From contig JARWMV010000013.1 in assembly GCA_030998015.1 (NCBI GenBank), positions 124,001 to 188,000 on the forward strand: a stretch of 64,000 nt of DNA, given 5' to 3'. The position numbers and the translations under genes were made by a program. Positions 8,578 through 64,000 of the stretch are shown here, one piece after another. The DNA is from Ceratorhiza oryzae-sativae. Its lineage: Eukaryota > Basidiomycota > Agaricomycetes > Cantharellales > Ceratobasidiaceae. How positions within the stretch are numbered: the first letter of the stretch is position 1; every line of letters begins with the position of its first letter. The notes beneath the pieces were generated by a model. It was not told the origin of the DNA and made no database searches. It was given only the letters and a program-made list of their open reading frames with translations.

Positions 8578-11500
8578 CTTCCCCCCTTCAAGGCACGGGG
8601 GTCCTGGGGTGCCTTTGGGTGCGACTTGACATAGTCAGCAATGAGTTCTGGTGCGTTCACCAGGTCGTCATAGGTTAACCATTGTCGCTTGTCATAGCCG
8701 AGCCACTTGACATAGTATTCGAAGACGTTAGATCTTTTGTTGTATCGTGACTTTATGATCTGTTCCACTTCGAACTCTTCTTCCCCTTCAGGAGTTACCA
8801 CAGGTAGTGGTGGGGGAACCTGACGGCCATAGGGGTCGTCTTTATATTTGGTCAGGAGTGAGACATGAAACACTGGGTGTATTTTCATGGTTATCGGTAG
8901 GTCCAATTTGTAGGCATGTGTGCCATGTTGTGCTACCACCTTGAATGGTCCAACTCTTTTATGGGCCAGTTTCCTGGAGGCCTGCTGTGTCCGTATGTTT
9001 TTGGTATCAAGCCAAACTTTGTCTCCAACTTTAATAGCTTCAGGGGTTCGATGCTTCTGGTCGTAGTATTCCTTGATCCTCTGGTTTGCTATTTCCAGGG
9101 CTGCCTTGAGTTCGTCATGACCCTTTTGGAGCCATTCTGCATGGTTGTCTGCTAAAGGGAGTTCTGGTTCCTCCCTGTCCCCGACTGCTAGCCTTGGGTG
9201 GAAACCGTAGTTTGCAAAGAATGGTGATTTGCCAGTTGAGGTGTTGACACCATTATTGTAAGCAAATTCAGCTAATGGTAAGAGCGCGACCCAGTCATCT
9301 TGTCTGTCTGATACATAGTGTCTGATGTACCCTTCCACTACTTGGTTGGCTCGTTCGGACTGGCCATCTGTCTGAGGGTGGTATGCTGTGGAGTAGGAGG
9401 GTTTTATATCCAGTCGTTTGTATAAGTGCCTTAAGAATTTGGATGCGAAGTTGGGGCCACGGTCTGAGATTGTTTTCCGTGGTAACCCATGGAGTTTCCA
9501 TACATATGTTAGGAACAGGTTGGCGCAATCCATAGCACTGGCTTCCGATTGACATGGAATAAAGTGGACCATTTTTGTCAGGCGGTCGACAACTGTAAAT
9601 ATGGCATCAAATCCCTCTGACAGGGGTAGCCCGGTGATCAGATCGTAGGTAATTTCTTCCCAAGGTTTTTCTGGTGCAGGTATTGGGTTTAAGAGCCCTG
9701 GGGGAACTTGGTTGCTGTGCTTGTTCCTGATGCATGACTCGCAGTGTGTGACATATTCGTTGACTGATTTTTTCATTGATAACCACGTGTATTTGCGATT
9801 TAACAACTCATATGTTCTGAACTGTCCTGGGTGTCCTGCTGCTGGACTATCGTGACGGCTTTCAATGACCAGTTTGCGAAGTTCTTTGTTATTTGGGACG
9901 TAGATTCTGCCCTTGTGTCGTAAGAGTCCTTCATCCCATTCCCAATCTTTGACCTTCTCATTGTCATCTAGGGCTTTTAGCACTTTTGACAGGTGCTCAT
10001 CCCCTGGGATAGCGTCCCTAATGAGTTGTTCCAGGTCATGGTCTGGTGTGATTGCTTGTAACCACAGAGATTTTAATTCCAAAAATTGGTTTTGTGCAAG
10101 CAGAGCTTGGCTCTCACCCCCCTCTTTAGGGATGTGTCTTGACAGCCTAGAGAGTATGTCTGCCCAGCCGTTCTTTGCCCCTTCAATATATAAAATCTTG
10201 AATTCGAACCTGGATAAGAACTCATGCCACCGTGTGACCCGACCGTTCAGTGGCCGATTTGTCTTCCAATACTCCAAATTCTTGTGGTCACAAACAATGT
10301 TTACTGGGTGTTTGGCCCCTTCTAGCAAATGACGCCAGTGTTTAAGGGCCTTGATAATTGCCAGCATTTCTTTGTTGTAGATATCGTAGTTTCTTTCTGC
10401 TGGGACCATTGCCTTGGAGTAATAGGAAATTGGGTGGAGCATTCCGTCCTCTCCGTATTGTAATAATACAGCGCCTGTGGCATAGCCTGAGGCGTCGGTT
10501 TCCAAAATGAATGGTTTGTTGGGCTCTGGCTGAATTAGGAGGGGGGCTTCTTTTAATTTTTGCTTCAGCAGATTCCATGCTTGATCCCTTTCTTCTGTCC
10601 ATTCCCATTTTACATCCTTCTTGACAAGTTCATAAAGACATCTTGTGATTTTTGAAAAGTCTTTTATGAAGTGCCTCAACCAATTTGCAAACCCCAACCC
10701 TTCCAGGACTTCGGTTGGGTTGGTAGGGGTTGGCCATTCAACAGCCTTTTCAACCTTGGCTGGGTCTACTTTAATTCCCTGGGGAGTTACTACTATCCCC
10801 AGGTAGTCCACTTCAGTGACGTCAAAAACGCATTTCTCCAGGGCGCAGTATAGACCAGCCTTTTGAAGCGGCGCAAGGACTTCTCTGACATGTTCATTGT
10901 GTTCTTCCTGGTTTTTGAGAATACTAATATGTCGTCCATGTAAATTACAACGTAAATGCCTTCGATGTCCTGGAATTCTTCTCGGATCATGGCCATGAAG
11001 GTTCCTGGTGCATTCTTTTGACCAAATTGCATGACTAGGGCTCATACAGCCCGTATTTGGTCTTGAAAGCGGCCTTCCATTCGTCTCCTTCCCGAATTCG
11101 TATGAGGTTGAAACCCCACTTTAGGTCAATTGGTGAATATCTTTGCCCCCGCAAGTTTCCACAATATCATTGATGCGTGGGAGGGGTACACATTGGAGAC
11201 AGTCATTTCGTTTAGCCGCGGTAGTCGATGCACATGCGCAGCTTCCCATTCTTCTTTTTGACGAATATGACTGGATGCCATTGGTGACCTTGAGGGTCTG
11301 ATATGCCCTGCTTTCAGTTGGCGATCCAAGGTTTTGCGCAATTCTGCATCTTCCTTGACACCCACGCTATATATGGGACCATGCCTTGGCTTGGCATCTG
11401 GTTTTAAATCTATTTCCATATCCCACTTTATGGGGTGGTAGTGGTTGGACGTCGTCTTCTTCAGCGAATATTTTCTGGAATTCTTTATATTTTGTTGGGA

Positions 11501-12081
11501 GGGAGTCTAGGAGTCCAGCTGAAGCTCCTTAGGTTCATTTGCACGCACGTGCAAGGGTTTTGTGATGCAATGCTTCAGGCATATTGGGAGTTGAACTTCA
11601 TGTCCTTTCCATCCCAATCAATGTTGGGGTTATGGAATTTGAGTCATGACATGCCCAGGACTAAATCATTTTTGCCAACGTTCACAACATAGGCACTGAG
11701 GATTTCTTGGTGCTCTTGAATGCACAGCTCAAAGGTGCAGTAGTGGGTCACAGACCCAGAGTCTATCTCCCTTCCATCGATTACCCTCAGTTTCTTGGGT
11801 GTTTTTAGGGCAACGGTAGGAATACGGTATTGTTTAACCAAATCTTCATGTATAAATACTGACGTGGCCCCTGAGTCGATCATGGCCCATCCATTGAATT
11901 TTTTCATGTTATATGCAGACTTTTGTTCGGGGGTTATGCGCAGAGGGAATGCATGAAAGAAAAACTGTAGTTGTGATTGGTTTCCTAACGACATACATTC
12001 CATTTCCATAATTTTATTTTCATTATGCGCATTTTGTAACATAGCGCCCAAGACCACCCCCCTGGCACGGTTTGAGCTCAT
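8565..12081 (-). pseudogene. Family 1 pol: protease, RT, RNase H, integrase, chromodomain
   Basis: Sense order: protease at 12081-11644 (active site AMIDSGATSVFI); reverse transcriptase from about 11420 to 10790, with the catalytic YVVIYMDDILVF near 10960; RNase H (FILETDASGYATGAV) about 10510-10100; integrase with an HHCC zinc site (SRHDSPAAGHPGQ, CESCIRNK) and the catalytic DLITG, SDRGPNF and HPQTDGQSERAN blocks; chromodomain (EVEQIIKSRYN, YYVKWLGYD) about 8775-8665. Breaks: a TGA after the protease at 11644, frameshifts between 11644 and 11045 and around the YMDD box. The ATG of pol overlaps the gag stop as ATGA, which suggests reinitiation. The frame ends 13 nt inside the 3' LTR. The chromodomain places it among chromoviruses, which direct integration to particular chromatin. 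Confidence 0.9.
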
Positions 12082-13461
12082 TCTTTTACCGACTCATCGT
12101 CGGTTGTTTCTACATCCTCAACCACTGCCTCGTATCCTGACATCTTGGCTGAGGGACATTTGGCTGCGATATGGCCCCGTCCTCCACAGTTATAGCAGGT
12201 GTTTGTCCCTTCCTTTCCTGCGCTATCCAGATCCATTGCGTCTGGATCCTTTGCCTTGGGGCCGCCGGTGGTTATCCTTCTTTATGTCCTTGAAGGATTC
12301 TTGTATGTTGGCATTACTGCCATCGTAACGGACGGTTGGAACCGTGAAGCCCTTTGCATTGGGGCCAATGGCTACAATTTGACCTTTTACAGCCCTGCCA
12401 TCTTTGATCTTGTAAATGTGTTCCCCATTCTTGAATTTCTCCTTTTGGGAGACGCTTTGGGGGTTATTTGTGGGCCTGCTAGTCGAAGCGTTGTTGCTAT
12501 TGGACTTATTACCCCCATGAGATGTCCTCTTGCTACCAAAGGAAATGAGGTGGCGGTCAATTTCCAGGGCCCGCTGTGTGAGCTGGGCGAATGTCTTTGT
12601 GCGGGGATCATAGTTTTGGGCCACCATGCTATCTGTTACGTCTGACGACAGACCATCATAGAACTGATCACGCATGGCGGCATCGTTGTAGTTGAGGCCT
12701 GTGGAATATAAGTTGAATAGGGTGAGGTAGTCCTGAACCGTCTTGGATTGTTTCAACTTCCGCCACTTGTCGCGGTTATTTTCAGTGTGGTTCAGATCCC
12801 CATATCGGGTAGTAAACTCTTGCCAGAATAAATTGGCATCGTGAAGCCAGGGGATCGCAGTTCCAGGGTTGAGAATTTCAAATTCTTCATACGAGTTAAC
12901 CCATTCAGCTGCTGACCCTTCGAGATAAGAGGTGATGAAGGCAACCACTTGGTCAGCCGAGTGCCCACTCATGTTTGTATTGATGTATCGGGCACATGCA
13001 ATTCTGAATGAGATGGCGTCTTCCCGTTTTGTGCCATCAAATTTTTGAGGGGCGGCCATCTTAACCTTTGCAGTCGACCCTCCAGAGGGAGCAGGTGCTG
13101 TTGGTTGTGGTTGGACTGTACCAGTGGGAGCTAGTACTTGAGCAGCGCCTGAGCCACCCATGGAGGTGTTGATTTGCGCTTCAATGCGCGTGATAGTAGT
13201 TTGGAGAATGGCTAACATTCCCACTAGGTTGTTGACATTGGTGGCTAGTCCGGCCACATCCGCATCTATTTTTGTCTGATTTGTGGTAAGTTTGGCCTCG
13301 AGTGAATCTGTGTAGGTTTTATTATTGTGTTCGACGTCCCCAATATCATTTTGGAGATTATTGGTTCGCTCTCGCAGTTCGTCCATTGATCGAAGCATAT
13401 AGATGACCTTATCTTCATCAGACATATTCGCCCAAGCAGGGGCAGGGGTTGGCGATGCCAT
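12078..13461 (-). pseudogene. Family 1 gag with CCHC knuckle, one frameshift
   Basis: Codons from 13461 give a coiled-coil-rich N-terminus (MDELRERTNNLQND, then VNNLVGMLAILQTTITRIEA), a retrotransposon gag core (MAAPQKFDGTKRED, WLHDANLFWQEFTTRYGD, LTLFNLYSTGLNY) and a basic tail. The zinc knuckle C-YN-C-GGRG-H-IAAK-C is in a different frame (about 12200-12155), so a single frameshift near 12260 separates it from the 412-codon upper frame. The frame ends at TGA 12078-12080, overlapping the pol ATG. Gag forms the virus-like particle and the knuckle binds element RNA. Confidence 0.88.
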
Positions 13462-14730
13462 TTCAGAGAAGGTTTGATAAAACTTTTAAAGGCGACGGAG
13501 ACGGTAAGGAAGTACAGGGAATTGAGAGTTGTTTTGATAATAAAGAATTTCCGTTCCCCTCACAAGTCTATAGATTTCAAAGTTCCCGATTCCCGTGAAC
13601 CTCAACCAAGTATCGTCCAAGTCCCAGCTTTTGGTGTCCTGGCAACGATATGGGCACTCCACCCTCTTTAGTTTAATTTGGTCCCGAAGGAGTGCTTCCT
13701 TGGGAAGGATTGATTTGGGCTGCCGGAAGGGGTGCTTCTTCCTGAATTGGCGAGCCCGTGCCACTTAGAAAGGTGGGGTGAGGGAGGTCTGACGGTGTTG
13801 AGAAGACGGGGAAGGCGTACTCATGGGGTTCAATTGTTTCTCAGACTATCGCTTCTAGTCTGAGATGGTCTTGGAGGAGGGATAGGTAGTCCTCCTGGTG
13901 TTCGCGCAAACGCTCGGTTAAGTATGCGCAACGGGCCTCGGCTTCGTGAAGTTTTTCACGGGTTTCTTCGTACTTATTCCGGTAGTAACAGTACCTGTCT
14001 TGGAAGTTCTCGATAGTGTTTAGCAGGTGATGAAGAAGCTGTTGGCCAAGGTTCTCCAGCTTATAGCTGGTTGCGGGGGATGGTGTAGTAATAAAGGAAT
14101 TTGTCCTTCTTAGGACAATAGGGGCAGCGCGCTGGGAAGGTGGCTCCGTTCGCCCGACAGCAGATTTTGCACTCAGGGGCACCTGGCTCGGTGACGAAGG
14201 CTTGTTGGGCACGTCCGACTCTCTGGGGGCGGACTTTGATAATTACTACTCGGTTAAAATCGATGTGCCCTGCTTCTTCAAGGATACTTTCGACTGAGTT
14301 GAGGGTGAAGCAGTGGATCGATAGGTGTCCGAACCACCCACACAGACGGCAGCGCTGATCTTCTGTAAAAGGTTGTGCCACTTGAGGGCCGTGCGTTCCG
14401 TCAGAGACGTACTCGAGCAAGAGCAAGATAAAAGGAAAAATAGACCCTTTCCCGAGTCTATGGGAATAGGAAGGTGACCTCCGTTGCTCAGCTACTTAAG
14501 GGCAATGAGCGACCCCACCTCTTGTTGACGAAAGAGATTAGAGAACCGAAGCTTGTTACGACGTGTGAGGGACCTGGCTATGCAAGGTTTCACAGAGGCG
14601 CGTATAGGGCAACGATATCTCGTGACTGTGGATAGGTGGAGTGGGATTGGGGAAGGCAACGAGGAGTTATCTCGAGACGACGCCGACGGCGTTCCAAACG
14701 TATCCCAGACGACACTGAGACTTACGATTG

Positions 14731-14745
14731 TCAAGAACTTGACCT
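14731..14745 (-). promoter_or_regulatory. Self-priming primer-binding site, family 1
   Basis: Directly inside the 5' LTR the sense strand reads AGGTCAAGTTCTTGA. This is exactly complementary to 15 nt of the element's own LTR (14814-14828), which lies about 30 nt downstream of the LTR TATA box (about 14855-14862). This is the arrangement of Tf1/sushi elements, where the mRNA 5' end folds back to prime reverse transcription instead of a tRNA. Confidence 0.75.
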
Positions 14746-14747
14746 GA

Positions 14748-15122
14748 TGTCGACGACAACAAGTCAGGCGACGAGGAAATAGTAAGAGAATAAAAGAACT
14801 TGTATTCGACGAGAGGTCAAGTTCTTGAGGAGTCCTCTGCGAACTTGACCTGGTTTATATACATAGTACAAGCCACATCATAACAAACAAGTCTGTACAG
14901 TGAGTCACGACAGATAAGAGATAGAAGCAGTAGAAGCGACTGCGGAACTGCGGAATTTCACATCAGAGTTGAAATACATCTCGGTTACCGGTCCGGAACA
15001 TTCCCTGAGTCACATGACACAGATATACCATAAAAGGCAAGTATGTTTTGAAGATGATCTCATAAAATGTAGTAAATCGAGAAAATATTGTAGAGTGGAT
15101 GTATGCGTGTCAGTTTGTGACA
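14748..15122 (-). repeat. 5' LTR of family 1 element
   Basis: 375 bp with a TATATAAACC promoter on the sense strand, followed about 30 nt later by the self-complementary sequence matching the primer site. Confidence 0.92.
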
Positions 15123-41352: not shown

Positions 41353-42000
41353 TGTAACAGAGTAACTGAATATCTTTATGGATTTATGGCATTTTTCCTA
41401 AGCAGAATAAGCCATAAACAAGGTCACGTGACCTTGGTGCTTAACCAGTGCTTATGGTGGTTACCCTGAACTCGCTCCAGCATTTCTCTCCATTGTTACT
41501 TGGAGCGAGGAGTGAGTTGTCACATGATCTTGGTGCTTACAGCAGGATCACGTGATCTCAGTGCTTATGGTGGTTACCCTGAACTCACTCCAGCATTTCT
41601 CTCCATTGTTACTTGGAGTGAGGAGTGAGTTGTCATGAGATCTCAGCACTTACAGCAGGATCACATGATCTCAGTGCTTACCCCTCAGACCTCACATGGC
41701 TCTATAAGATTCGGAGCTGCACAAACTTAAGATAAACAATTACCTAAACCATAGTACTGTATATAACCTGCACCTACTGTGGATTGTGCTTAGATAATAC
41801 ATCCACAGCCACTGCAGCCACAGGCGTATATAAGAAGGATAAAGTAAGACTGGATGCCTCAGCTTGCTTTATCTCATCAACCACCATAGACCATAGCAAA
41901 AACTGTAACTAGAACACTCAATACATACTGCATAGCACCAAATCGTCAACACAGCCACTACTTAAGTGCTTCACAAGGAAGCATCCAGAGGGTCACGACA
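41353..42000 (+). repeat. LTR of gypsy family 2, 5'-truncated by about 20 bp
   Basis: Aligns with the LTRs at 42275-42831 (reversed) and 56179-56961. It contains two units of the roughly 113-bp internal repeat (starting 41456 and 41579), a TATATAAG box and the GGGTCACGACA end. It is followed by the family's ATAAAGCAAGCT primer site (42003-42014). Confidence 0.85.
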
Positions 42001-42120
42001 TTATAAAGCAAGCTCTTAACTTAACTAGTGGTGAACATAAGTATACTACACAGATACTAAGGGCTGAGTACACAAGAAACCAGCTAACTCCTGTGATACA
42101 TAAGAGAACACAAAGAAACT

Positions 42121-42274
42121 ATGTCACAGAGACCACAAACTCGATCTCAAAGCAGAGTGGCGAATAGTAGACCACAATCACCCAAACCCATTACCCCCCC
42201 AGAGGCTGAAGATAACCCAGATGAGACCCTCCAAGGAATGCTGGGGGGGTTGCCACAAAACCCACGACCAGTGG
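42121..42274 (+). pseudogene. Start of family 2 gag, cut by a second element
   Basis: Codons from ATG 42121 (MSQRPQTRSQSRVANSR) match the gag start at 57083. The frame is interrupted at 42275 by the LTR of an oppositely oriented family 2 element. Confidence 0.8.
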
Positions 42275-42831
42275 TGTTGTGACCCTCTGGATGCTTCCTT
42301 GCAAAGCACTTAAGTAGTGGCTGCATTGACAGTTTGGTGCTATGAGGTATGTATTGAGTGTTCTAGTTACAGTGTTTGCTATGGTCTATGGTGGTTGATG
42401 AGATAAAGCAAGCTGAGGTGTCCAGTCTTGCTTTATCCTTCTTATATATGCCTGTGGCTGTGGTGGCTGCAGATGTATTATCTAAGCACAATCCACAGTA
42501 GGTGCAGGTTATATACAGTACTATGGTTTAGGTAATTGTTTATCTTAAGTTTGTGCAGCTCCAAATCTTATAGAGCTGTGTGAGGTCCAAGGGGTAGGCA
42601 CTGAGGTCACGTGATCCTGCCATAAGCACCAAGATCACGTGACAACTCGCTCCTCACTCCAAGTACCAAGGGAGAGAAATGCTGGAGCGAGTTCAGGGTA
42701 ACCACTGTAAGTGCCAGATAAGTGCCAAGGTCACATGACCTTTGTTTATGGCTTATTCTGCTTAGGAAAAATGCCATAAATCTGTAAAAATATTTGGTTA
42801 CTCTGTTATGTCTGTTTGATGGGTCATAACA
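42275..42831 (-). repeat. 3' LTR (557 bp) of the minus-oriented family 2 element
   Basis: On the minus strand it runs TGTTATGACC to GGTCACAACA, preceded by the polypurine tract AAAGGGGGGGATAA (42832-42845). It contains one unit of the 113-bp repeat, against three in the 783-bp LTR at 56179. The difference of 226 bp is exactly two units. Confidence 0.9.
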
Positions 42832-42897
42832 TTATCCCCCCCTTTGGACATGTCTTGGGGGACCTCGAGACATGGATTAGATCCTTATGCAAAAGGA

Positions 42898-43023
42898 ATC
42901 TCATGCACCAAGGAGGTTAAGGGTGCTGGACTTGAACCAACAACCTTTTGGCTGATTCAGTATCTTTTGATGAGGTCAGGCTGAGTCAGGCTAGACCCCT
43001 TAACCTCTTTGTTACATGAGATT
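42898..43023. repeat. Large imperfect hairpin with internal B-box-like sequence
   Basis: GAGGTTAAGGG (42913-42923) pairs with CCCTTAACCTC (42997-43007), and AATCTCATG (42898-42906) pairs with CATGAGATT (43015-43023). On the minus strand the loop contains GGTTCAAGTCC, the RNA polymerase III B-box consensus, with a tRNA-like T arm. No convincing A box or complete cloverleaf was found. It lies between the Rep stop and the 3' LTR. Confidence 0.5.
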
Positions 43024-43140
43024 GTTTTTCTTTTCTTTGTTGTGGAGGTTATTTAGGGGTGAGGATTCATCTGCTTCTTCTCAGAATGCCCCAACTGTTT
43101 GGATGGGCATAGCAGAAGTTGTACAATACAGTAGATTATT

Positions 43141-44496
43141 CTAAGGGAATACAAAGAATGGTTTTCCTCCTGCATACACCCATTCTACATTTCTTGATAC
43201 CCATAAGTCCCCTTCTTCCCCCTCTATGTCCAACCAACACTTCATGATTGCCAACTGGCTATTTCCCAGAATAACTGTTGGCTGTACCTTCATCAATTTC
43301 ATGTGCACGTACCTGCCTGTGAAGTCCACCTTGTACTGGCTCAGGGCCTTGAGCAAGTACTTCCTGTTTGACTGGACCATGTCATCCAGGATCCAAATGT
43401 TGGCCTCTTCTGACAAGTTGCCCACATTCCACACATTGCACATCTGGCTGTGGCAGCCCTTGGATCGTGCATACACTGTTTTCCCTGTTCCAGTTTCTCC
43501 TTCTATCACCAGGATGCAATGGCACACCCCTCTTCCCCTCTTCTTGACTTCCTCAGCAAACCATCTGTCTGCTCAGTTGATGTGCTCCCAGTCTTCCAGG
43601 ACCTCTAACTCCACAGGGATTGCAGGCATGCAACCCTGGTCTTCCTTGTATGTGTACTCAGCATATGCTCGTACCAAGTTCCATGTTGTCACCATCTGGA
43701 GGGGGCAGAGCTGCTTGAACGCCTGGTAGTACTCCTGTTTCGTTGCTGAGGCAACAATCTCCGTCCCATCCTCCAAGTCTGCCTCCATCCTTGACTGTTT
43801 TCCACCCTTTCCCTTCACCAAGATCTCCTCCAACCTTTCCAAGGTCAGGTCCCCTGCCATCAAATCCTCTATCTCCTTGCCATTAGCTCTGACATCCTTC
43901 CAGAGATAGTTGAAGGCATCCCTTGCTGGGTTGCCTCCTGGGCCATCCTTGAGGTCTTTGGGCTGTATGTTGGGGTGTTGCCCCTTGAAGTCCCAGAACC
44001 CCACATTCTTGGTGTTCCACCCACCCTTCCGTTCCTGACTGATGGAAAGGGTGTGGATGTGCAGGGGCCAGGTTGGGTTGTAGTTCGGCTCCTCCAGGTT
44101 GTGCCATTCAACCACAGCCAAAGTTGCCCAGTGATTGGGCTGGTGGTGGCAGAACGCCTTGTATTGGGTGGTGAGCCCACTTAAGGGCTGATCACATAGC
44201 TTCGACCAGGTCAGCAGCACCACCCTGGTCTGGACATGGAATCGGGGGGCCCGTGTGGTTTCGGTCAGCTCTTTGGACCTGCGATCTGTCAGTGTAAGCC
44301 GCATAGAAGCAGGTGAGGGGGCTCGGCTTGATTCCGAGGGCACCAGTGATGGCGATGGCAACCTCCGCCCTGCACTTGATTTGTTTGGCTGGGGTGTTCC
44401 CATGTTCAAGCCATCTTCACTTAGCATCGTTGGTATTTTTAGAAGTAGATGCATCTTGTGGGGAGGGCATGAGATGATAGCCCCTTTTACCCCCAA
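43141..44496 (-). pseudogene. CRESS-DNA-virus-like Rep (HUH endonuclease plus SF3 helicase), one internal stop
   Basis: Geminivirus/genomovirus-type replication initiator homologue of about 450 codons in a single frame, interrupted once by TGA at 43573-43575. After an N-terminal extension of about 85 residues comes the endonuclease domain: motif I-like RVVLLTWSKL, the HUH metal motif PLHIHTL, a block resembling the geminiviral GRS region (FWDFKGQHPNIQ), and the tyrosine motif YLWKD (Y-x-x-K). Beyond the stop is the helicase: Walker A GETGTGKT, Walker B IWILDDM and motif C VILGNSQ. In viruses such proteins nick the origin and drive rolling-circle replication. All catalytic motifs are still visible, but the stop separates nuclease from helicase. 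It has the same sense as pol and lies inside the retrotransposon next to the 3' LTR. Source and role in the element are unknown. Confidence 0.82.
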
Positions 44497-44889
44497 AGGT
44501 GTCCCCTAGATATACCCTCTCTGGTTGTTGTGGTCACGTGGTTTCCTGATGTAGGCTTGTGCTGGTTATGACACATCTCCAAGGGGTGCCCTTCCTGTGT
44601 TCCCCCGCATTGGCCTTATTCCTTGCTACGCTCGGGGCCTCTGCTCCTCCACTTTGGTCACTGCCCCCTCTCCAACCCCTCTGGTAGTTAGGGGATAGTG
44701 TATATTCATGTGACTAGGCTAGGTCATGTGATTCCCATACTTTGTTGTTTGTTTTCTGGCAGATGGTCATGTGTCTGTTGGTGTCACCTGACCAGACTTT
44801 GTTTTGATGTTTGTGCAAGTTATTGTGTTGCACCGTGATTTTTTAATGTTTGTGGTTTTGTTGTTTCCCTTCCTCATCCCCTCTTTACT
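44497..44889. promoter_or_regulatory. Divergent intergenic region between Rep and the Cys-rich gene
   Basis: A 393-bp region from which Rep (minus) and the Cys-rich gene (plus) diverge. It contains direct repeats of TCATGTGA (about 44714-44721 and 44731-44738), a CACGTG at about 44535 and T-rich tracts near 44840-44880. The last 30 bases of the window (63971-64000) match its right part in reverse, so it is shared by both element copies. I do not see a canonical TAATATTAC nonanucleotide. Confidence 0.45.
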
Positions 44890-45422
44890 ATGTGCATCAT
44901 TTCCCTTAACTACAATCCCCTTGACTGCACCTGCTGGTCTATCCCTGAGGGGGAGTACTGTGCCTACTGTGATGCTGTGTGTGACGCCTCCCTTGAAGAC
45001 TTCTATGGAGGTGTCGGGGATTGGTTCTTCTGTGGGGTGCCAGGTATGTGTGCTCGTTCTTCGTTGTTCACACGTTGCTAACTTGCTCTGTAGAAGAGCG
45101 CATACTCCTCGATGGTCGGGCCCATGAGGCCACCCTTGAGCGTGTCTGGGCGCTTGTTGATCAGGACTACATGTCCTTTGAGGAGCAGTCTCACCAGGCT
45201 GCTCTTGCTGAATTCTTTGAGGAGGGCTCTGCTCCCTTGTTAGATGAGGCTTCGCCCTTCGCAGCGTCTGGTTCTGGGTGTTTCCAGAACTACATGGCTG
45301 ACTTCCCAGGGGGGGAGGCCCCTTGGCTGCAGCCCACTACCCAGTCAGTTGTTCAGACCAATAAGAAGGATAAAAAAGGCAAGAAGCCCTATAGCCAGCC
45401 CCTCAAGGGCAAACGTAAATAG
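44890..45422 (+). CDS. Cys-rich accessory protein, antisense within gypsy family 2 (copy A)
   Basis: Two exons, 44890-45043 and 45094-45422, with a 50-nt intron (GTATGTG, branch TTGCTAAC, TGTAG) and an in-frame join (G-V-P then EERILLDGRAHEA). About 160 residues. The N-terminus carries a cluster of cysteines (LDCTCW, EYCAYCDAVCDA, WFFCGVP) that could bind zinc or form disulphides; the C-terminus is acidic, then a very basic tail (KKDKKGKKPYSQPLKGKRK). It has no domain I recognise. It is transcribed against gag-pol and runs tail to tail with the extra ORF. A spliced gene antisense to an LTR element cannot lose its intron during retrotransposition, because its intron is not spliced from the sense genomic RNA. 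Confidence 0.65.
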
Positions 45423-45465
45423 AGAGTAAAAAATGTATTAAGTTTGATGTGTAAAAATAAAACTC

Positions 45466-46356
45466 TTATACATTTGAGAAAAATCCATGGGAGGCAAAGT
45501 GGTCATATGGGGGCTGGTTCCAATAGTGGCACCTCCTCCAGAGCTTCAACAAGCTCATTTCCCACCGGTCCCAGTCCTGTTTGGCTTCCTCCACAGCAGG
45601 GTCCAGGGTGGGTTCCTTTATCACTGGCTTTGCTTCTTCCTCAGTCACGACCAGTGATTCTAGGCTTGATGTAAGGCTCATCATATCCATGTCGTAATTG
45701 GTGTTTTTGTTTGGGTGCACCTTCACCCAATTTTGGAAGTCGCTCATGTTTGCCTGCTTTGTCCTGATAGCAGTAAACATCTCATCAGTGGTAGTTGCTT
45801 TGAGCAGTCCCACATATGGTGTGGCTGGTGTCAACTTCCACTCTTCCAACAATGCCTTGGCCTGGCGCTCCACCTCCCAGTCCCCCCCATCTGCCATTTG
45901 GCCTGCGGCCCTCCCCTGTTGTCTCGCTGCCTTGGCCACCATGTTGACTGTTGGTCCCATGATATTGTCAATGACATACATCAGTGTTCTTAGCAAGGTG
46001 TTTCTTGTTGTTGGCGTCCAGCTTCCATGCCATGTTAGGACCCCTAACCTGGGATCCAGGTACTTGTCATCATCGATCCAGTTCCTTTCATCCCTTAACT
46101 TCTTTGGGATGTACACTAGGTTAGACCCTGGCAACAGTTGCTCAGCATACCTCTGGGCGTCTTCCATGCTGGAGCAGTACATCCCTAGTTTAGGATGATT
46201 GTCCCTGCCAGGGTAGGGTGCTCGCTGCCTAGTGGTGGGTGGCTGCCAAAGTGGGGCCACCTGACTTTCAGCAAGTGGTATGTAATGGTTGGGATGTGCG
46301 ACTGGGTGAGTGATGAAAGGCATGTTTTGGGGTTTCGCAGGTGTATTGTGGTGCAA
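45466..46356 (-). CDS. Extra ORF downstream of pol in gypsy family 2 (copy A)
   Basis: A 296-codon frame following pol. The N-terminal part is Pro/His-rich (MHHNTPAKPQNMPFITHP); the body contains YPGRDNHPKLGMYCSS, NLVYIPKKLRDERNWIDDDK, DPRLGVLTWHGSW, VERQAKALLEEWKL, GLLKATTTDEMFTAI and DFQNWVKVHPNKNTNYD, with an acidic tail. The copy at 62393-63372 is close over the whole length. I do not recognise a known domain. Position and conservation in two copies argue for a real element protein, perhaps an additional structural or regulatory factor; it is not a recognisable envelope, as no signal peptide or membrane helix is seen. Confidence 0.6.
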   Translation of the reverse strand: MHHNTPAKPQNMPFITHPVAHPNHYIPLAESQVAPLWQPPTTRQRAPYPGRDNHPKLGMYCSSMEDAQRYAEQLLPGSNLVYIPKKLRDERNWIDDDKYLDPRLGVLTWHGSWTPTTRNTLLRTLMYVIDNIMGPTVNMVAKAARQQGRAAGQMADGGDWEVERQAKALLEEWKLTPATPYVGLLKATTTDEMFTAIRTKQANMSDFQNWVKVHPNKNTNYDMDMMSLTSSLESLVVTEEEAKPVIKEPTLDPAVEEAKQDWDRWEMSLLKLWRRCHYWNQPPYDHFASHGFFSNV

Positions 46357-46409
46357 GTGAGGTGGTAGAGTGGGCTCTGGCCTTTCTTAGGTATCCTGGA
46401 TGGCTCTTT

Positions 46410-46789
46410 TTAAAGCTTTCCAGGTCCTCGTTTGGTTCTCTTTGGCCTGCCTTTCAAGTCACCTGAGTGCTGACTTGTCTTGACTGGCATTGGTGCATCT
46501 GGTAAGCACCTTTGCAAGTCATTTAGAACCTCTTTCATGTCAGCAAACTTGCTGGCACGTTCAATGGTGTCTTCTATTGGGTCATAGCCCTTCCATCTAA
46601 TTTGGTAAAACAGCTCACCATTCTGCCATTCATAATTTGCAATGTGGTCCACCTCATACTCCTCCTCTCCTTCTTCTGTTATGATTGGTGGTGGTTTGGC
46701 CTGCCTTCTTTGGAAGTCTTTATCTTCTGTGAATGGCGAGAGGAGATTTACATGGAATACATTGTGTACACATATGGTTTTAGGTAGGT
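46410..46789 (-). pseudogene. Family 2 pol C-terminus with chromodomain, truncated
   Basis: Sense codons up to 46789 match 61963 onward: VHNVFHVNLLSPF type integrase tail, then chromodomain VDHIANYEWQNGELFYQI RWKGYDP, ending in a basic tail. The upstream part of pol is absent. Similarity to the other copy stops at GGTAGG 46783-46788. Confidence 0.8.
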
Positions 46790-48127: not shown

Positions 48128-48543
48128 CCTTGGCACTTACAGTGGTTACCCTGAACTCACTCCAGCATTTCTCTCCCATGTTACTTGGAGTGAGGAGCAA
48201 GTTGTCACATGACCTCAGCACTTATCCCTTGGACCTTGCACAGCTCTATAAGATTCAGAGCTGCACAAACTTAAGATACACAATTAACTAACCCATAGGA
48301 CTGTATATAACCTGTACCTACTGCAGACTGTGCTTAGATAAGACATCTGCAGCCACTGCAGCCACAGGTATATAAAGGAGGATAAAGCAAGACTGAACAC
48401 CTCAGCTTGCTTTATCTCATCAACCACTGTAGACCATAGTGAACACTGTAACTAGAACACTCAATACATACCACATAACACCAAACTGTCAATGCAGCCA
48501 CTACTTAAGTGTTCCACAAGGGAGCATCCAAAGGGTCACAACA
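48128..48543 (+). repeat. Partial LTR of gypsy family 2
   Basis: Matches the 3' two thirds of the 56179 LTR: one repeat unit (GGTTACCCTGAACTCACTCC), TATATAAAGG, AGCTTGCTTTAT and the GGGTCACAACA end. The 5' part is missing. It lies between copia gag sequence and the LTR-like segment. Confidence 0.8.
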
Positions 48544-56178: not shown

Positions 56179-56961
56179 TGTTATGACCTGTCAAAAGGAC
56201 ATAACAAAACAACCAAATATTTCTACAGATTTATGGCATTTTTCCTAAGTGGAACAAGCCATAAACAAAGGTCACGTGACCTCGGCGCTTAGCCGGCGCT
56301 TACGGTGGTTACCCTGAACTCACTCCAGCATTTCTCTCCATTGTTACTTGGAGCGAGGAGCGAGTTGTCACGTGATCTCAGTGCTTACAGCAGGATCACG
56401 TGACCTCAGCGCCTACGGTGGTTACCCTGAACTCACTCCAGCATTTCTCTCCCTTGTTACTTGGAGCGAGGAGCGAGTTATCACGTGATCTTGGCGCTTA
56501 CAGAAGGGTCATGTGACCTCAGTGCTTATGGTTGTTACCCTGAACTCGCTCCAGCATTTCTCTCCATTGTTACTTGGAGCGAGGAGCGAGTTGTCATGTG
56601 ATCTCGGCGCTTACAGCAGGATCACGTGACCTCAGCGCCTACCCCTCATACCTCATGCAGCTCTATAAGATTCGGAGCCGCACAAACTTAAGACAAACAA
56701 TTACCTAACCTATAGTACTGTACATAACCTACACCTACTGCGGAGTGTGCTTAGATAATACGTCCGCAGCCACCGCAGCCACAGGTATATATAAGGAGGA
56801 TAAAGCAAGACTGGACGCCTCAGCTTGCTTTATCTCGTCAACCACCATAGACCATAGCAAACACTGTAACTAGAACGCTCAATACATACTGCATAGCACC
56901 AAACCGTCAATGCAGCCACTACTTAAGTGCTCCACAAGGGAGCCTCCAGAGGGTCACAACA
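56179..56961 (+). repeat. 5' LTR of family 2, 783 bp, with three 113-bp tandem units
   Basis: TGTTATGACC to GGTCACAACA. Tandem units begin at 56304, 56417 and 56530. Each unit contains CACGTG-type palindromes and the arm pair AACTC(A/G)CTCC / GGAGCGAGTT, with GGAGCGAGGAGCGAG as a direct repeat. A TATATATAA box lies at 56786-56794. Confidence 0.9.
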
Positions 56962-57082: not shown

Positions 57083-58916
57083 ATGTCACAGAGACCACAA
57101 ACTCGATCTCAAAGCAGAGTGGCGAATAGTAGGCCACAATCACCCAAACCCACTGCTTCCCCAGAGGCTGAAGGTAACCCAGATGAGACCCTCCAAGGAA
57201 TGCCAGGGGGGTTGCCACAAAACCCACGACCAGTGGCTCAACCCAACCCCACTCGGGCCCCCATCCTGGGAGGGGAAATAGGGGGAATACCACTCCGCAG
57301 CCCTCAACTGCCAATTCACCTGATAAATCCAGACCCAGAAGATATCTCAAATCCAGAGAGGGATGAGGTAGAAGATATGACCCGAACCATATACGAACAA
57401 GGCACGGCCTTGGCGGAAGAGGCAAGGACACAACCCCAGCCAGGTCCCGGAACCATAGCCACTGCCAACCCTATTCACACCATTGCCACAGCCATCAGGG
57501 CGGGGCTCAAGGAACTTAGAGACAATAATCATAGGGAACTAGAAAAGGCAATCACAGGTATAAATCAGTGTCAAATATCACTGACCCGACAAGAAGGAAA
57601 TGTGGACTGGATGGTAAGGTCAATGGAAACATCCAACAAAAATGTCCTCTATGTGGCAAAGAACCAGGATGACCTAAAAGCAGAAATGGGGAACCTGATA
57701 AAAGAATTAAAGGACATCTCCATGGAAATAAACCGAGTACTGGGAATGCAAGAGTGAAAGCTCGAAAGCTTAGAGAAGAAAACTGAAAACACAGGGGAGA
57801 TCCTAATCGCACTAGAACAATGGGTAACCGATCTAGGAAATGAGCTCCGGAAAACAACTGAAGCAGGAAGGCCAAGGGAAAGGACAGAAGAAACCAGGGG
57901 AAGAACTAGGGTGGTCATAGGAAGCCCCTCACAATCCCCCTCAGCCTCCCCAGTATGAACACCCTTTCTGGGAAGAACCTTCCAGGCTGAGTCCACAATA
58001 AGACCCCGAACAGAACCTCCATCCCAAGCAAACCAACCTACCCTTGCTGCAAACCACACTCCTAAGGAGGCGAGACTAGGGAGACCCAGCAAATTTAATG
58101 GGAAAAAGGGGAAGGAAGCAGAGAACTTCATAATCAGCATGGAACTTTTCTTTGCTGACTATGATGAATCAGCCTTTGATGACCGAAAAAAGATATCTGC
58201 TGTGCTAATGAACATGGAGGATGGGGAAGCAGCAAACTGGGCACAACCTTACGCCGGAAACTACTAGCAGGCGAACACACAGGTATTCTTGCATCCTGGA
58301 AGGATTTCAGGAAGGGATTCCTGGATGCTTTTAATGACCCAGTCATAAAGGAAAAGACCATCCGGAAACTAAGGAAATTAACACAGACCAAGAGTGCATT
58401 GGATTATGCTACCCAATTCCGGATCCTGATCCAAGAGGTAGACTGGAACCAGGAAGCCCTCAAGGACCAATTCAGGGAAGGGTTAAAACCCGAAGTACGA
58501 CAAGAGATCTTAAGGATTGAAGTACTGGCAAATGAGGCTGAAGGTCCATCATATACCTTAGATCAATTAATCGACTTTGCCTGCAAAATGGATGACATGC
58601 AGTTTGCAAACCAGAAAATGAATACAAGGACCAGCAACTCATCAAATTCAACCTGGGCACCAGCGAAATACAAACAAGGGGGGAACAAGCCTTTAGGGAC
58701 CAGCGGCAAACAGGGGAATACCCAAACCAACAACATGGTAAGGATACCAAACAGTGAAAAGGACAGGCGAAGGAAAGAAGGACTCTGTATCAAATGGGTA
58801 AATCAGGGCATGTCCTGAAGGAGTGCCGAGGCCAGTGGACCTACGACAAAGCTAAGATACAAGGGAAGGCCAGCAGACAAGTTGAGGAAGAAAGCAGCTC
58901 TGAGTCGGAAAACTAA
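57083..58916 (+). pseudogene. Family 2 gag, with two TGA codons and frameshifts
   Basis: MSQRPQTRSQSRVANSR start, then a proline-rich segment, a coiled coil (about 57500-57900) and the gag core: FNGKKGKEAENFIISMEL, ASWKDFRKGFLDAFNDP, LDYATQFRILIQEVDW, QFREGLKPEVRQEILR. The final CCHC knuckle is broken: GLCIK at about 58785 continues in another frame as GKSGHVLKEC. In-frame TGA at 57755-57757 and 57956-57958 and a frame change near 58265 also disrupt it. The original frame ends at TAA 58914-58916. Confidence 0.85.
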
Positions 58917-58933: not shown

Positions 58934-61900
58934 ATGTTGGAGGACCCCAATATAACCCCTACCGCAGATGTATGTTACCTCAAGAAGTCTAGTAATCAAT
59001 CAATAATATACACTACGGTAGAGGGAATCATGGAACCAGCTAAGACGCTGATTGACTCAGGATCTTCAACCAACTTCATCGATAAGGCCTATTCAAGGGA
59101 AAAAGGGATTCCAACCACTCCCCTCAAACACAAGAAATCAATTGTGGCCATTGATGGAAATGAAATCAAGGATGCCATAGAAGAAAGGGCAGAACTAAAC
59201 ATCGAAGTGGAAGGGAAGACACTAAAATGCTCCCTTTATGTAATGACCCTAGGTGACACAGACATAGTCCTAGGGAAAGAATGGCTTGAAGAAGCAGAAC
59301 CTATCATAGATTGGAAAGACCTTACCATCTCATACCCAGACGAAATCAAGGCAAGGGCAGCAAGTGAAAGCCTACAAATCCCAGAAGAATTTAGGGATTT
59401 TGAAGACCTATTTGGGGAAGAAGGTTTCCGAGAACTTCCACCCCACCAAGGTAACCTAGACTTCAAAATGGACCTGATCGAGGGAGGGAGCTGCCAAAGC
59501 CTGCAAAGAGGTACAGTATGTCGCCAGCAGAAACAAAGGCGCTCAGGGAGTACCTAGAGGAGGAACTAAGAAACGGGAAAATAAGGCCCAGCCAGTCAGT
59601 TGTAGCTGCACCCTGTTTCTATGTGAACAAAGCAGATGGAGGGCTTAGGTTGGTAGTCGACTACCGTAAGATGAATGACATCACCAAGCCAGACAGGTTT
59701 CCACTTCCAATCCAAATAGAATTGATTGAGAGACTGAAGGATGCAACCATCTATTCAAAAATGGATGTTCGATGGGGGTTCAACAACATCAGGGTAAAAG
59801 AGGGAGACGAATGGAAAACAGCTTTCAGGACAGGAGAAGGCCAGTTTGAATGCTTGGTCATGCCATTCGGAGTAAAAGAAGGACCAAGAACCTTTACCAG
59901 GTTCATGATGGAAAAGTTCCGTGATATAATAGACGATTATGTGGTAATCTACATGGACGATGTACTAGTGTTTTCCAGAAACAGGGAAGAACACGTACAA
60001 CATGTCAGGGAAGTGTTAAGAAGAATGAGGGAAAACCACCTCTTCCTCAAACCACACAAGTGTCAGTTCTTTGTGAAGGAGGTAAGCTTCATTGGAATTG
60101 TCATATCCCCAGAAGGGATATCGATGGAAAAGGAAAAGGTAAAGGCAGTTCTAGAATGGCCAGAACCTAACACAGTAAAAGAAGTCCAAGCCTTCCTAGG
60201 CTTCGTGGGGTTCTATAGAAGGTGGATAGAGAAGTTTAGTACCTTAGCCAAACCCCTCACAGATCTCACCCAAAAAGATGTCAAATTCCTGTGGGAAAGA
60301 AAACAACAGGAAGCATTTGAAGCTATCAAAGAAGCAGTAGCAAGAGAACCGGTCCTGATCCACCCAAACCCAAACAGGCCATACATACTGGAAACAGACG
60401 CCTCAGGAGTGGCCATGGGGGGGTACTAAGCCAAAAGGGTGATGACAACCGATTGCATCCAATTGCCTTCCTATCGAAGAGCTTCACCCCACCAGAGAAA
60501 AATTATGACACCTACAAGGAGTTGCTTGCAATTGTTAGGTCCTTAGAGCACTGGAGGTTATACTTAGAAGGGACAGAGGAACCTATTGTGATATACACTG
60601 ACCATAGGAACCTCCAGTACTGGCAAAATGCCCAGATGTGGAATAGAAGGCATGCCAGATGGTATCTCACTCTGGCACCCTTCAATTTTCAGATTGTGTA
60701 TAGACCAGGGAAACTCTCACAGAAGCCAGATGCCCTTTCCAGAAGGAGCGACCATGGGGATACCCCTATGGAACCACAGATCATGATTCCAGAAGAAAGG
60801 TTCATAGGTTTCATGGCAGAAGTACAGGGGAATTTCTGGGAAGAGCTTAAAGAAGCTCAGGAAGAAGACGAATCTATCAGATCCTTAAGGCTGAGTGGCA
60901 AATAAAGAACAACTACCGCCCTCAGTACAGAAGGAATTTAGACGGTATGAAATGAAGGAGGGCCTATTAAGGTATGACGATAGGCTCTACATCCCAGATG
61001 ACAAGGACTTGAGGTTGAGTCTCCTTGAGGAGTGCCATGACGCCCCAGTGGCAGGTCATCAGGGACAAGCCCGAACACTAGAATTACTATCAAGGGATTA
61101 CTATTGGCCAGGAATGAAGGCCCAAGTAAACCGATACGTGGAATCTTGTGAAACATGTGTCAAAGAAGCAAAGGACACAAACAAGGCACTCCCCTGAAGT
61201 CCTTACCAATCCCATGGAAACCATGGGCAGATGTCGCATATGATTTCATGTCAAATTACCTGTCTCAAAGGGGTACGACAGTATCTTGACAGTTGTAGAT
61301 CGCTTCTCCTGGCAGGCCCATTTTGTACCATGTCTGGAGAGCACCAATGCAGAAGAACTGGCAGAAATATTCATAAGGGAAGTATGGAGACATCACGGGA
61401 CCCCAGAAACCACTGTCTCAGACCGAGGGCCAACCTTTAACAGCCAATTCCTAAAGCCCTATACAAAGGAATTGGGACAAAGCCCAGATTCTCCACTGCT
61501 TTCCATCCAGAAACAGATGGTCTGTCGGAAAGGACAAATCAATGGGTAGAAGGGTTCTTAAGAACCTTCTGCAATTATAGACAAGATGATTGGGTAAAAT
61601 GGTTACCCATTGCCGAATTCTGCCATAACAACCACGTAAATGCTACAACAGGACAAACCCCATTTGAAACAGTATATGGAAAAAACCCAAGATGGGTTGT
61701 CCGAGAGGGAGAAGAACCATCTGAGGCACCCGCTGCAGACAACATGCGTAATCAAATGGAAAAGGTATGGGATGAGGCAAGAGCCTCAATGGAATTACAC
61801 CAACAAATGGAAAAGAAAGGGAGGGAATTCAAGGTAGGAGACAAGGTTTGGCTGCTCCTAACAAACCTCTCGTCCAAGAGACCCTCCAAGAAACTGGACA

Positions 61901-62350
61901 ACCGAAAAGGGGGGCCCTTTGAAATCACAGAAAAGATCTCATCCCATGCATATCGCCTGGACCTACCTAAAACCATACGTGTACACAATGTATTCCATGT
62001 AAATCTCCTCTCGCCATTCACAGAAGATAAAGACTTCCAAAGAAGGCAGGCCAAGCCACCACCAATCATAACGGAAAAAGGAGAGGAGGAATACGAGGTG
62101 GACCACATTGCAAATTATGAATGGCGGAATGGCGAGCTGTTTTACCAAATCAGATGGAAGGGCTACGACCCAATAGAAGACACAATGGAACGTGCCAGCA
62201 AGTTTGCTGACATGAAAGAGGTTCTAAATGACTTGCAAAGGCGCTTACCAACGCACCAATGCCAGTCAAGACAAGTCAGCACTCAGGTGACTCGAAAGGC
62301 AGGCCAAAGAGAACCAAACGAGGATCTGGAAAGCTTTAAAAAGAGCCATC
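58934..62350 (+). pseudogene. Family 2 pol: protease, RT, RNase H, integrase, chromodomain
   Basis: Protease TLIDSGSSTNFIDK (about 59043); reverse transcriptase with LRLVVDYRKMND and the catalytic YVVIYMDDVLVF (about 59938); RNase H (YILETDASGVAMG, VIYTDHRNLQYW); integrase zinc site (CHDAPVAGHQGQ, CETCVKEA), catalytic TVVDRFSWQAHF and VSDRGPTFNSQF; chromodomain VDHIANYEWRNGELFYQI with RWKGYDP (62100-62170). Frame changes near 59510, 60425, 60895, 61197 and 61500 fragment it. It is a second, clearly distinct chromovirus lineage compared with 8203-15122. Confidence 0.88.
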
Positions 62351-62392
62351 CAGGATACCCAAGAAAGGCCAGAGCCTGCTCTACCACCTCAC

Positions 62393-63372
62393 TTGCACCA
62401 CAACACACCTGCGAAACCCCAAAACATGCCTTTCGTCACTCACCCAGTCGCACATCCCAACCGTTACACCCCACTTGCTGAAAATCAGGTGGCCCCACTT
62501 CGGCAGCCACCCACCACCAGGCGGCCAGCACCCTACCCTGGCAGGGAAAATCGTCCTAAACCAGGGATGTACTGCTCCAGTGTGGAAGACGCCCAGAGGT
62601 ACCTGAACGACTGTTGCCAGGGGCTAACCTAGTATACATCCCAAAGAAGTTAAGGGATGAAAGGAACTGGATTGACGATGACAAGTACCTGGATCCCAGG
62701 TTAGGGGTCCTGACATGGCATGGAAGCCGGAAGCCAACAACAAGAAACGCCTTGTTAAGAACACCGATGTATGTCGTCGACAATATCGTGGGACCAACAG
62801 TCGACGTGGTGACCAAGGCAGCAAGACAACAGAGGAGGGCCACAGGCCAAATGGCAGACGGAGGGGACTGGGAGGTGGAGCGCCGGGCAAAGGCATTGCT
62901 GGAAGAATGGAAGTTGACACCAGCTGCACCGTATGTGGGACTGCTCGAAGCAACTACCACTGATGAGATGTTTACTGCTATCAGGACAAAGCAGGCAAAC
63001 ATGAATGACTTCCGAAATTGGGTGAAGGTGCACCCAAACAAAAACACCAATTACGACACTGATATGACAAGCCTTACATCAAGCCTAGAATCACTGGTCG
63101 TGGCTGAGGAAGAAGCCAAGCCAGAAATAAAGGAACCCACCCTGGACCCAGCTGCGGAGGAAGCCAAACAGGACTGGGACCAGTGGGGGAAAACGAGCTT
63201 GTCGAAGCTCTGGAGGAGGTGCCACTGTTGGAACCAACCCCCATATGACCACTTTGCCTCCCACAAATTGTCTCCCGAATGTATAAGAGTTTTATTTTTC
63301 TTTTACACACCAAACTTAATACATTTCTTTTACTCTCTATTTTTACGTTTGCCCTTGAGGGGCCGGGTATAG
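62393..63372 (+). pseudogene. Extra ORF downstream of pol in family 2 (copy B)
   Basis: Matches 46356-45466 throughout: MHHNTPAKPQNMPFVTHP, then after a one-base frame change near 62605 NLVYIPKKLRDERNWIDDDK, DPRLGVLTWHGS, VERRAKALLEEWKL, DFRNWVKVHPNKNTNYD. The two copies differ mostly by conservative changes, which supports past selection on the protein. Function unknown. Confidence 0.6.
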
Positions 63373-63395: not shown

Positions 63396-63868
63396 TTATT
63401 GGTCTGAACAACTGAGGGTAGTGGGCTGCAGCCAAGGAGCCTCCCCCCCTGGGAAGTCGGCCATGTAGTTCTGGAAACACCCAGAACCAGACGCTGCAAA
63501 GGGCGAAGCCTCATCAAACAAGGGAGCAGAGCCCTCCTCGAAGAATTCGGCAAGAGCAGCCTGGTGAGACTGCTCCTCAAAGGACTTGTACTCCTGATCA
63601 ACGAGCGCCCAGACACGCTCAAGGGTGGCCTCATGGGCCCGACCATCAAGGAGGATGCGCTCTTCTACAGAACAAGTTAGCTACGTGAGAATGACAAAGA
63701 ACGAACACACATACCTGGCACCCCACAGAAGAACCAGTCCCCAACACCTTGATAGAAGTCTTCAAGGGAGGCGTCGCACACAGCATCACAGTAGGCGCAG
63801 TACTCCCCCTCAGGGAGAGACCAGCAGGTGCAGTCAAGGGGATTGTAGTTAAGGGAAATAACACGCAT
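63396..63868 (-). pseudogene. Cys-rich accessory gene, antisense (copy B)
   Basis: Same structure as 44890-45422: exon 1 63868-63715, a 50-nt intron, exon 2 from 63664. The cysteine pattern is identical (LDCTCW, EYCAYCDAVCDA, WFFCGVP). A 2-base loss in the C-terminal part shifts the frame and leads to TAA at 63396-63398, removing the basic tail. The intron is retained in both copies at the same place and length. Confidence 0.6.
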
Positions 63869-64000
63869 AGTAAAGAACGGGATGAGGAAGGAAAACAACA
63901 AAACCACAAACATTAAAAAATCACGGTGCAACACAATAACTTGCACAAACATCAAAACAAGGTCTGGTCAGGTGACACCAACAGACATGTGACCATCTGC

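Follow-up and report, generated by a model that had tools for sequence, protein, structure and literature searches.

A chromodomain-bearing gypsy retrotransposon family with a Rep-like gene as standing cargo in Ceratorhiza oryzae-sativae

Introduction

Can a mobile element that copies itself through RNA also keep a gene for starting rolling-circle DNA replication? The question arises from a 64,000-nucleotide (nt) stretch of the Ceratorhiza oryzae-sativae genome (assembly GCA_030998015.1, contig JARWMV010000013.1, positions 124,001 to 188,000, forward strand), called the window below, where a gene resembling the replication initiator (Rep) of circular Rep-encoding single-stranded (CRESS) DNA viruses lies inside a long terminal repeat (LTR) retrotransposon. 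An initial annotation, made from the letters alone, had proposed that a reverse-transcribing element captured this gene. We report that the retrotransposon belongs to a multicopy Ty3/gypsy family with a chromodomain, in which Rep sequence has a fixed place.

A three-gene module between the chromodomain and the 3′ LTR

Two copies of the family anchor the analysis. Copy 1, on the minus strand, starts at a truncated chromodomain (46789) and runs through acc1, acc2, Rep and a spacer to a polypurine tract (PPT) and a 557-nt 3′ LTR. Copy 2, on the plus strand from 56179, comprises the 5′ LTR, gag, protease, reverse transcriptase, RNase H, the integrase end with the chromodomain, acc1 and acc2, and extends beyond the window. 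To the right of position 64000 (piece L009), where the initial annotation had suggested looking, copy 2 indeed goes on with its own Rep (L009 1342-2697), spacer, PPT and 3′ LTR (LTR match at L009 3007-3788). Its length is 10.6 kb, of which ~3.5 kb separate the PPT from the end of the chromodomain frame. The window also holds a related gypsy element (8203-15122, minus strand) whose PPT, as judged by eye, comes less than ~100 nt after the chromodomain and in which acc1, acc2 and Rep find no match. The family has almost certainly gained an extra module of ~3.5 kb between chromodomain and PPT, made up of acc1 (sense), acc2 (antisense, predicted to be spliced) and Rep (sense). The Rep end of copy 1 is laid out as follows:

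42275..42831, minus strand: 3′ LTR, 557 nt, starting TGTTATGACC; 89-90% identity to the copy 2 LTR
42832..42845, minus strand: PPT plus ATAA adjoining the LTR, AAAGGGGGGGATAA; the junction varies by at most one base in 19 other copies
42836-42845, minus strand: PPT proper, AAAGGGGGGG, in the same orientation as Rep
43141..44454, minus strand: Rep gene with HUH nuclease and superfamily 3 (SF3)-type helicase motifs; in-frame stop at 43573-43575
44455..44889, no strand: Rep/acc2 intergenic region, candidate bidirectional promoter, with TCAYRTGA palindromes

Rep is a fixed part of the family

We searched the genome (48.8 Mb, 253 contigs) with Rep of each window copy and scored the best 40 of 184 candidates for copy 1 and the best 40 of 195 for copy 2. 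With the copy 1 query, each of the 40 best matches is 89-100% identical and spans no less than 1,300 of the 1,356 nt. Merged searches and fetched windows together place Rep sequence in at least 116 distinct places on 69 contigs, one holding just 28 nt of Rep and another just a 3′ part. Downstream DNA, inspected in 21 copies including both window copies, reads Rep, spacer, PPT and LTR in 21/21, each retaining all or most of the 295-nt spacer; one copy has ~1.4 kb extra near the Rep end, and some LTRs are partial. Upstream, chromodomain, acc1, acc2 and Rep follow one another in a single order and orientation in 18/18 inspected copies, some with later insertions. The placement first proposed from the window, with Rep in pol orientation between the accessory genes and the PPT and 3′ LTR, is borne out on both sides.

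The same question can be asked from a sample chosen independently of Rep, the best 40 of 161 chromodomain matches, which are close kin of copy 2 rather than a random draw. Thirty-six of them have Rep sequence where it is expected, in two cases as pieces only. A Rep match lies 1,787-1,911 nt downstream in 14 of the 40; for the remaining 26, up to 501 nt were fetched at the expected place of Rep. Twenty of these show a normal Rep start, one has the first 28 nt of Rep and then foreign DNA, one stops at a contig end within the intergenic region, and three hold DNA unlike the element. In the last (L062) the intergenic region is fused to the 3′ part of Rep, and we therefore take most of Rep to have been deleted there. 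No clean Rep-less version was seen among these 40 copies.

Six full-length copies have both LTRs in hand. Perfect 5-bp target-site duplications (TSDs) flank four of them, outside the LTRs; none was found for copy 2 and one other. Both objections foreseen in the initial annotation, that other family copies would lack Rep or that TSDs would mark Rep as a separate insertion, thus failed. The TSDs and the fixed gene order support the view that the module is reverse-transcribed and integrated together with the rest of the element.

The encoded protein carries the ordered motifs of a Rep

The Rep frame of copy 1 occupies 43141-44496 on the minus strand, with its first in-frame ATG at 44454, and contains the following motifs:

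in 44200-44223, minus strand: motif I, LLTW
in 44047-44067, minus strand: HUH motif (HIH)
in 43897-43917, minus strand: YLWK (YxxK)
43477-43500, minus strand: Walker A, GETGTGKT
in 43378-43398, minus strand: Walker B, ILDDM
in 43258-43275, minus strand: motif C, ILGNS

We tested the ordered pattern UUTU, HUH, YxxK, GxxGxGK[ST], hydrophobic-D[DE], hydrophobic..N. The helicase motifs (Walker A, B and C) are defined as in general usage. Motifs I to III follow published definitions (PMC6668415). The full ordered set is present in 6/6 full-length Rep relatives and in 0/20,000 shuffles of each. Among 20 genome copies of Rep, HUH is kept in 20/20, YLWK in 20/20 and a listed P-loop form in 19/20. The homology originally claimed for 43141-44496 holds in that all its motifs were located; neither window copy has an unbroken frame: copy 1 has a single in-frame stop (43573-43575), between the nuclease and helicase halves, and copy 2 has four stops before the end, the first perhaps upstream of the true start. 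The protein is very probably an HUH/SF3 Rep.

Protein database searches found 49 relatives from a single query and 58 from an alignment; all organism-labelled ones are from Ceratobasidium. Ceratobasidium sp. AG-Ba has relatives of 429 amino acids at 69-73% identity, with one cluster of 38 members; across Ceratobasidium strains, predicted full-length relatives measure 427-429 amino acids at 67-73% identity. Neither search found a viral relative. The one Rep profile in Pfam that matches more than one member is Gemini_AL1_M (8/38 members, best E 0.001); in P0011 this match (E 0.001, sub-threshold) sits just ahead of the helicase. Gemini_AL1 matches one of 21 members (E 0.23). The motifs suggest a CRESS ancestry. 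The proposed capture of a CRESS-type Rep by a retroelement is upheld as regards standing cargo (36/40 copies, TSDs), and neither as regards a hybrid RNA/DNA replication kit nor as regards descent from geminiviruses or genomoviruses, where the profile stays sub-threshold and no viral relative was found.

Selection on Rep and exchanged cassettes

Between copies 1 and 2, the Rep core (nt 265-1356) has 3/1/14 transversions at codon positions 1/2/3 (p = 1.4e-4), and the 264 nt ahead of it have 8/7/7. Transversions private to one of 20 copies provide a built-in neutral control and are spread evenly, at 31/32/31. The third-position excess in the core, set against the even private changes, therefore supports protein-level selection on Rep while copies spread, and we think it likely that Rep has a selected function. 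The reverse transcriptase shows a similar lean, in few transversions; for acc1 (1/2/4) and acc2 the counts are too low to judge.

The two subfamilies are mosaic. Copies 1 and 2 differ by 88 transversions from acc1 to the PPT, of which 61 fall within Rep -122 to +555 (678 aligned nt); the remaining 27, three of which lie elsewhere in Rep, spread over 2,619 nt at a roughly nine-fold lower density. The diverged block (window ~44619-43942 against L009) takes in promoter-proximal DNA, the N-terminus and the nuclease to just before motif III (+580 to +600), and it recurs when two more copy-1-like elements are compared with copy 2. Because the transversions cluster in one block that recurs in other copies, we regard the promoter and nuclease half as two exchanged cassettes. 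A 70% identical Rep fragment beside another copy (L024 7-342, minus strand) belongs to an older Rep subfamily of this genome.

A possible role for Rep on element DNA

LTR elements produce linear complementary DNA (cDNA) and LTR circles, and a nicking initiator with a helicase would find natural substrates in both. We favour, at a probability of roughly 0.7, an explanation in which a gypsy family carries a Rep module and Rep acts on element DNA. Rep would be made from its own promoter. Acting on extrachromosomal element DNA, either linear cDNA or LTR circles, it would nick and unwind at a site within the LTR or within the region of that promoter, and the outcome would be more DNA copies for integration. 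That Rep in this way replicates the element's own DNA is the most likely use we see for it, though less likely than not, and we think it doubtful that the element both reverse-transcribes and runs rolling-circle replication, with Rep nicking circles, perhaps at GGGGGGGATAATGTTATGACC at the PPT/LTR junction or at its own promoter. The exchange of promoter and nuclease half as one cassette is what would be expected if a cis site and the specificity of the nuclease change together.

If this is true, RNA-templated and rolling-circle DNA replication would be joined in one selfish element. Action on element circles would reveal a route for the trade of replication genes between retroelements and single-stranded DNA viruses and would give a use to LTR circles, usually deemed dead ends. 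Even with another role, a selected Rep would be an unusual cargo for the well-studied gypsy class. Natural replicates are at hand in the dozens of copies, the two Rep cassettes and the relatives in other species.

Counter-evidence and rival explanations

Several results weigh against this explanation. Read as frames, 20 Rep copies include one that is open to the end and 19, both window copies among them, with at least one earlier stop. The best Gemini_AL1_M match reaches 19.5 bits against a cut-off of 24, and structure models of Rep (mean pLDDT 36 and 46) are too poor to use. Columns with at least two copies on each side give transversions of 2/6/7, with no clear third-position excess, and the older, 70% identical fragment gives a weak signal (10/5/14 against copy 1, p 0.07; 8/4/13 against copy 2, p 0.04). 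Most of the transversions behind the selection signal lie in the one exchanged block; the signal therefore mainly reflects the history of the cassettes, and part of the selection may have acted elsewhere.

The search for a rolling-circle origin adds to these points. Neither window copy has a CRESS nonanucleotide in its intergenic region, and the PPT/LTR junction shows no excess of hairpins or folding (z -0.33 and +0.90). The sequence TAATGTTAT spans the PPT/3′ LTR junction of copy 1 (window 42826-42834, minus strand) and that of 18/19 other copies. One genomovirus (PMC6723397) and a circular molecule assigned to Genomoviridae (PMC6186406) have this sequence as their published nonanucleotide. 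The related gypsy element in the window does not have it at its own junction. The match is of nine bases, was noticed after the fact and has a second occurrence elsewhere in the window, and a gypsy LTR start can yield TAATGTTAT by itself; the junction is a candidate site rather than evidence.

Rep could instead be a passenger, captured once, carried unused or seldom useful, and copied through lying between the LTRs. The in-frame stops in 19/20 examined copies and the loss of most of Rep by deletion in L062 fit such a history, which is hard to square with the third-position excess of the core between subfamilies (14/18 transversions), as against the flat 31/32/31 of private changes, and with full-length predicted relatives (427-429 amino acids, 67-73% identity) in other Ceratobasidium strains; we consider it unlikely. 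Somewhat less likely again is a service other than copying the element, be it against incoming circular DNA viruses and related elements (interference, exclusion) or in target-site choice. Changing recognition pressure would be expected to produce a promoter and nuclease half in two sharply different exchanged cassettes, as found here; the motifs, on the other side, suggest an enzyme that would be catalytically complete.

Two further alternatives concern what the gene is and how it arrived. The protein might be a P-loop protein of unrelated origin in which the HUH-like and YxxK-like words arose by chance, given that nSTAND3 is the most frequent Pfam trace (19/38 members, best E 0.043), that AAA_22 appears in 9/38, and that an hhalign alignment to the p4M plasmid Rep covers only Walker A to Walker B (probability 3.6). 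Six motifs in order, absent from 20,000 shuffles of each of six proteins, the sub-threshold Gemini_AL1_M match ahead of the helicase in P0011 (E 0.001) and the retention of HUH and YLWK in 20/20 genome copies each speak against chance and make this reading improbable. Scattered Rep-like insertions are known in fungal genomes (PMC3198968), and Rep might have been a separate later insertion of this kind, an endogenous virus present by chance in some copies. This is contradicted by a place, orientation and spacing fixed in 21/21 copies, by Rep sequence in 36/40 chromodomain copies chosen without it and by TSDs outside the LTRs in 4/6, and we give it almost no credence.

Comparison with known elements

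The element shares with chromoviruses of the Ty3/gypsy group its LTRs, the order protease, reverse transcriptase, RNase H and integrase, a Tf2-1-like SH3 domain with a chromodomain, a PPT and 5-bp TSDs; it differs in the ~3.5 kb of acc1, antisense acc2 and Rep added between chromodomain and PPT. With the geminivirus-like transposon of Tuber melanosporum, described as having 37-bp terminal inverted repeats, transposase open reading frames and no obvious TSD, it has in common a multicopy Rep-like gene within a fungal mobile element (Liu et al., 2011; PMC3198968). The element here is instead an LTR retrotransposon with a reverse transcriptase and 5-bp TSDs, and a Tuber-type transposon was rejected since the unit is bounded by LTRs and TSDs and encodes reverse transcriptase.

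Terminons of bdelloid rotifers, described as endonuclease-deficient, telomere-associated Penelope-like elements of up to 40 kb, are likewise retroelements with accessory open reading frames for a rolling-circle initiator (PMC6431247). The present element differs in being a fungal, 10.6-kb LTR element with an integrase, and the presence of LTRs, a gypsy-type protease and the integrase C-terminus led us to reject a Terminon. Bdelloid LTR families with open reading frames captured downstream of pol resemble it in having an extra gene in the env position (PMC5408684); the main text of that paper has no whole-word match to "Rep". A Helitron, with a large RepHel and rolling-circle ends without TSDs, was also rejected, the relatives being of ~430 amino acids and Rep lying inside an LTR unit with TSDs. 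CRESS-DNA virus Reps of the geminivirus and genomovirus type show the same order of motif I (UUTU), HUH, YxxK, Walker A/B and motif C, along with the weak Gemini_AL1_M match; the Rep described here is too diverged for the sequence searches used to connect it to any viral Rep, is encoded by a retroelement, and came without an origin hairpin in our search.

Gene capture by LTR elements is already known, as are Rep in Terminons (PMC6431247) and Rep in a truffle DNA transposon (PMC3198968). Rep as the cargo of a gypsy LTR element appears to be new, none being found among the matches listed in the open-licence literature.

Accessory genes and the intergenic region

The remaining features of copy 1 are:

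44890..45043, plus strand: acc2 exon 1, Cys-rich, antisense to pol; reading open in 9/13 copies
45044..45093, plus strand: acc2 intron, GT..AG, 50 nt, predicted splicing; present in both window copies
45094..45422, plus strand: acc2 exon 2, basic tail at its end; reading open in 11/13 copies and partly in one further
45466..46356, minus strand: acc1 gene, an open reading frame of 296 amino acids
46500..46789, minus strand: chromodomain end of pol, 96% to copy 2; the element is truncated at this point

Rep and acc2 diverge from one intergenic region, a layout that recalls geminiviruses. The "Cys-rich gene" that the initial annotation placed beside Rep is present, starting with an ATG at 44890, rich in Cys at its start and basic at its tail; as a correction to that annotation, it lies antisense to pol, in two exons on either side of a predicted GT-AG intron at 45044-45093. 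The readings of acc2 in 13 copies consider the three longest antisense frames per copy. It has no Pfam match, and nothing in the analysis supports a capsid role for it. In AG-Ba, gene model P0029 has Rep fused to a tail resembling acc2 (single-comparison BLASTP E 6e-6, 46 residues), and acc1 has a single relative, P0059, at 43% identity, from the same Ceratobasidium sp. AG-Ba; the module may therefore exist there too.

The palindrome TCAYRTGA occurs 26 times in the window against 6.3 expected. Copy 2 has seven in the 783-nt LTR and six in the 422-nt Rep/acc2 intergenic region (56272-56629; L009 920-1341); the 6,958 nt spanning leader through acc2 contain none, and neither does the 1,356-nt Rep. 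Copy 1 has two in the intergenic region (44706-44731) and three in the LTR. The simple reading is that palindromes common to LTR and intergenic region may reflect shared regulation or a shared protein-binding site.

Age and decay of the copies

The LTR pairs of the six full-length copies are 94.2-96.7% identical over the last 430 nt, differing mostly by transitions, with 0-5 transversions. Near the Rep start, pairwise differences among 20 probed copies are 97% transitions, and two thirds of all differences are at CpG (2,574 CpG transitions, 1,138 other transitions and 113 transversions over 189 pairs). Relative to copy 2, four of these copies (L046, L059, L060 and L070) show 9-25 transversions because their intergenic region is of another variant. 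Similar decay with a CpG bias has been reported for Rhizoctonia solani AG8 (PMC4014442).

In three of the 19 stop-bearing Rep copies the longest open stretch still covers all six motifs. A stop at nt 922, which separates the nuclease half from the helicase half, is found in 9/20 copies, belonging to both subfamilies; this fits repeated CpG decay, and shared descent may be the alternative. In young copies, chromodomains 99-100% identical to copy 2 go with Reps that are mostly 3-9% off (one 14%), nearly all by transitions. Rep is richer in CpG than the chromodomain, and the divergence contrast appears larger than CpG content alone would yield.

Other features of copy 2 and further remnants

Pfam domains in copy 2 occur in the order RVP_2, RVT_1, RT_RNaseH and SH3_Tf2-1, integrase being represented by its C-terminus, where the chromodomain (PF00385) scores 26.4 bits (cut-off 25.1). 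Its features in the window are:

56179..56961, plus strand: 5′ LTR, 783 nt, with 113-nt tandem repeats
57083..57757, plus strand: gag region, assigned by position and common to several copies; no Pfam gag match
58934..59557, plus strand: protease, RVP_2 E 2e-10
59518..60429, plus strand: reverse transcriptase, RVT_1 E 2e-34
60453..60905, plus strand: RNase H, RT_RNaseH E 7e-22
61744..62481, plus strand: integrase C-terminus and chromodomain, SH3_Tf2-1 and Chromo
62614..63372, plus strand: acc1, 91% to copy 1
63416..63919, minus strand: acc2 region, antisense; Rep lies beyond 64000 (piece L009)

LTR length differs among copies through the number of 113-nt repeats (545 to 783 nt), even within one element, as at 56290-56640. 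Remnants of other family copies are also present in the window: at 41355-42274 (plus strand) an LTR with the start of gag directly adjoins copy 1's 3′ LTR, and 48136-48543 (plus strand) is a partial LTR left from a further copy of the same family.

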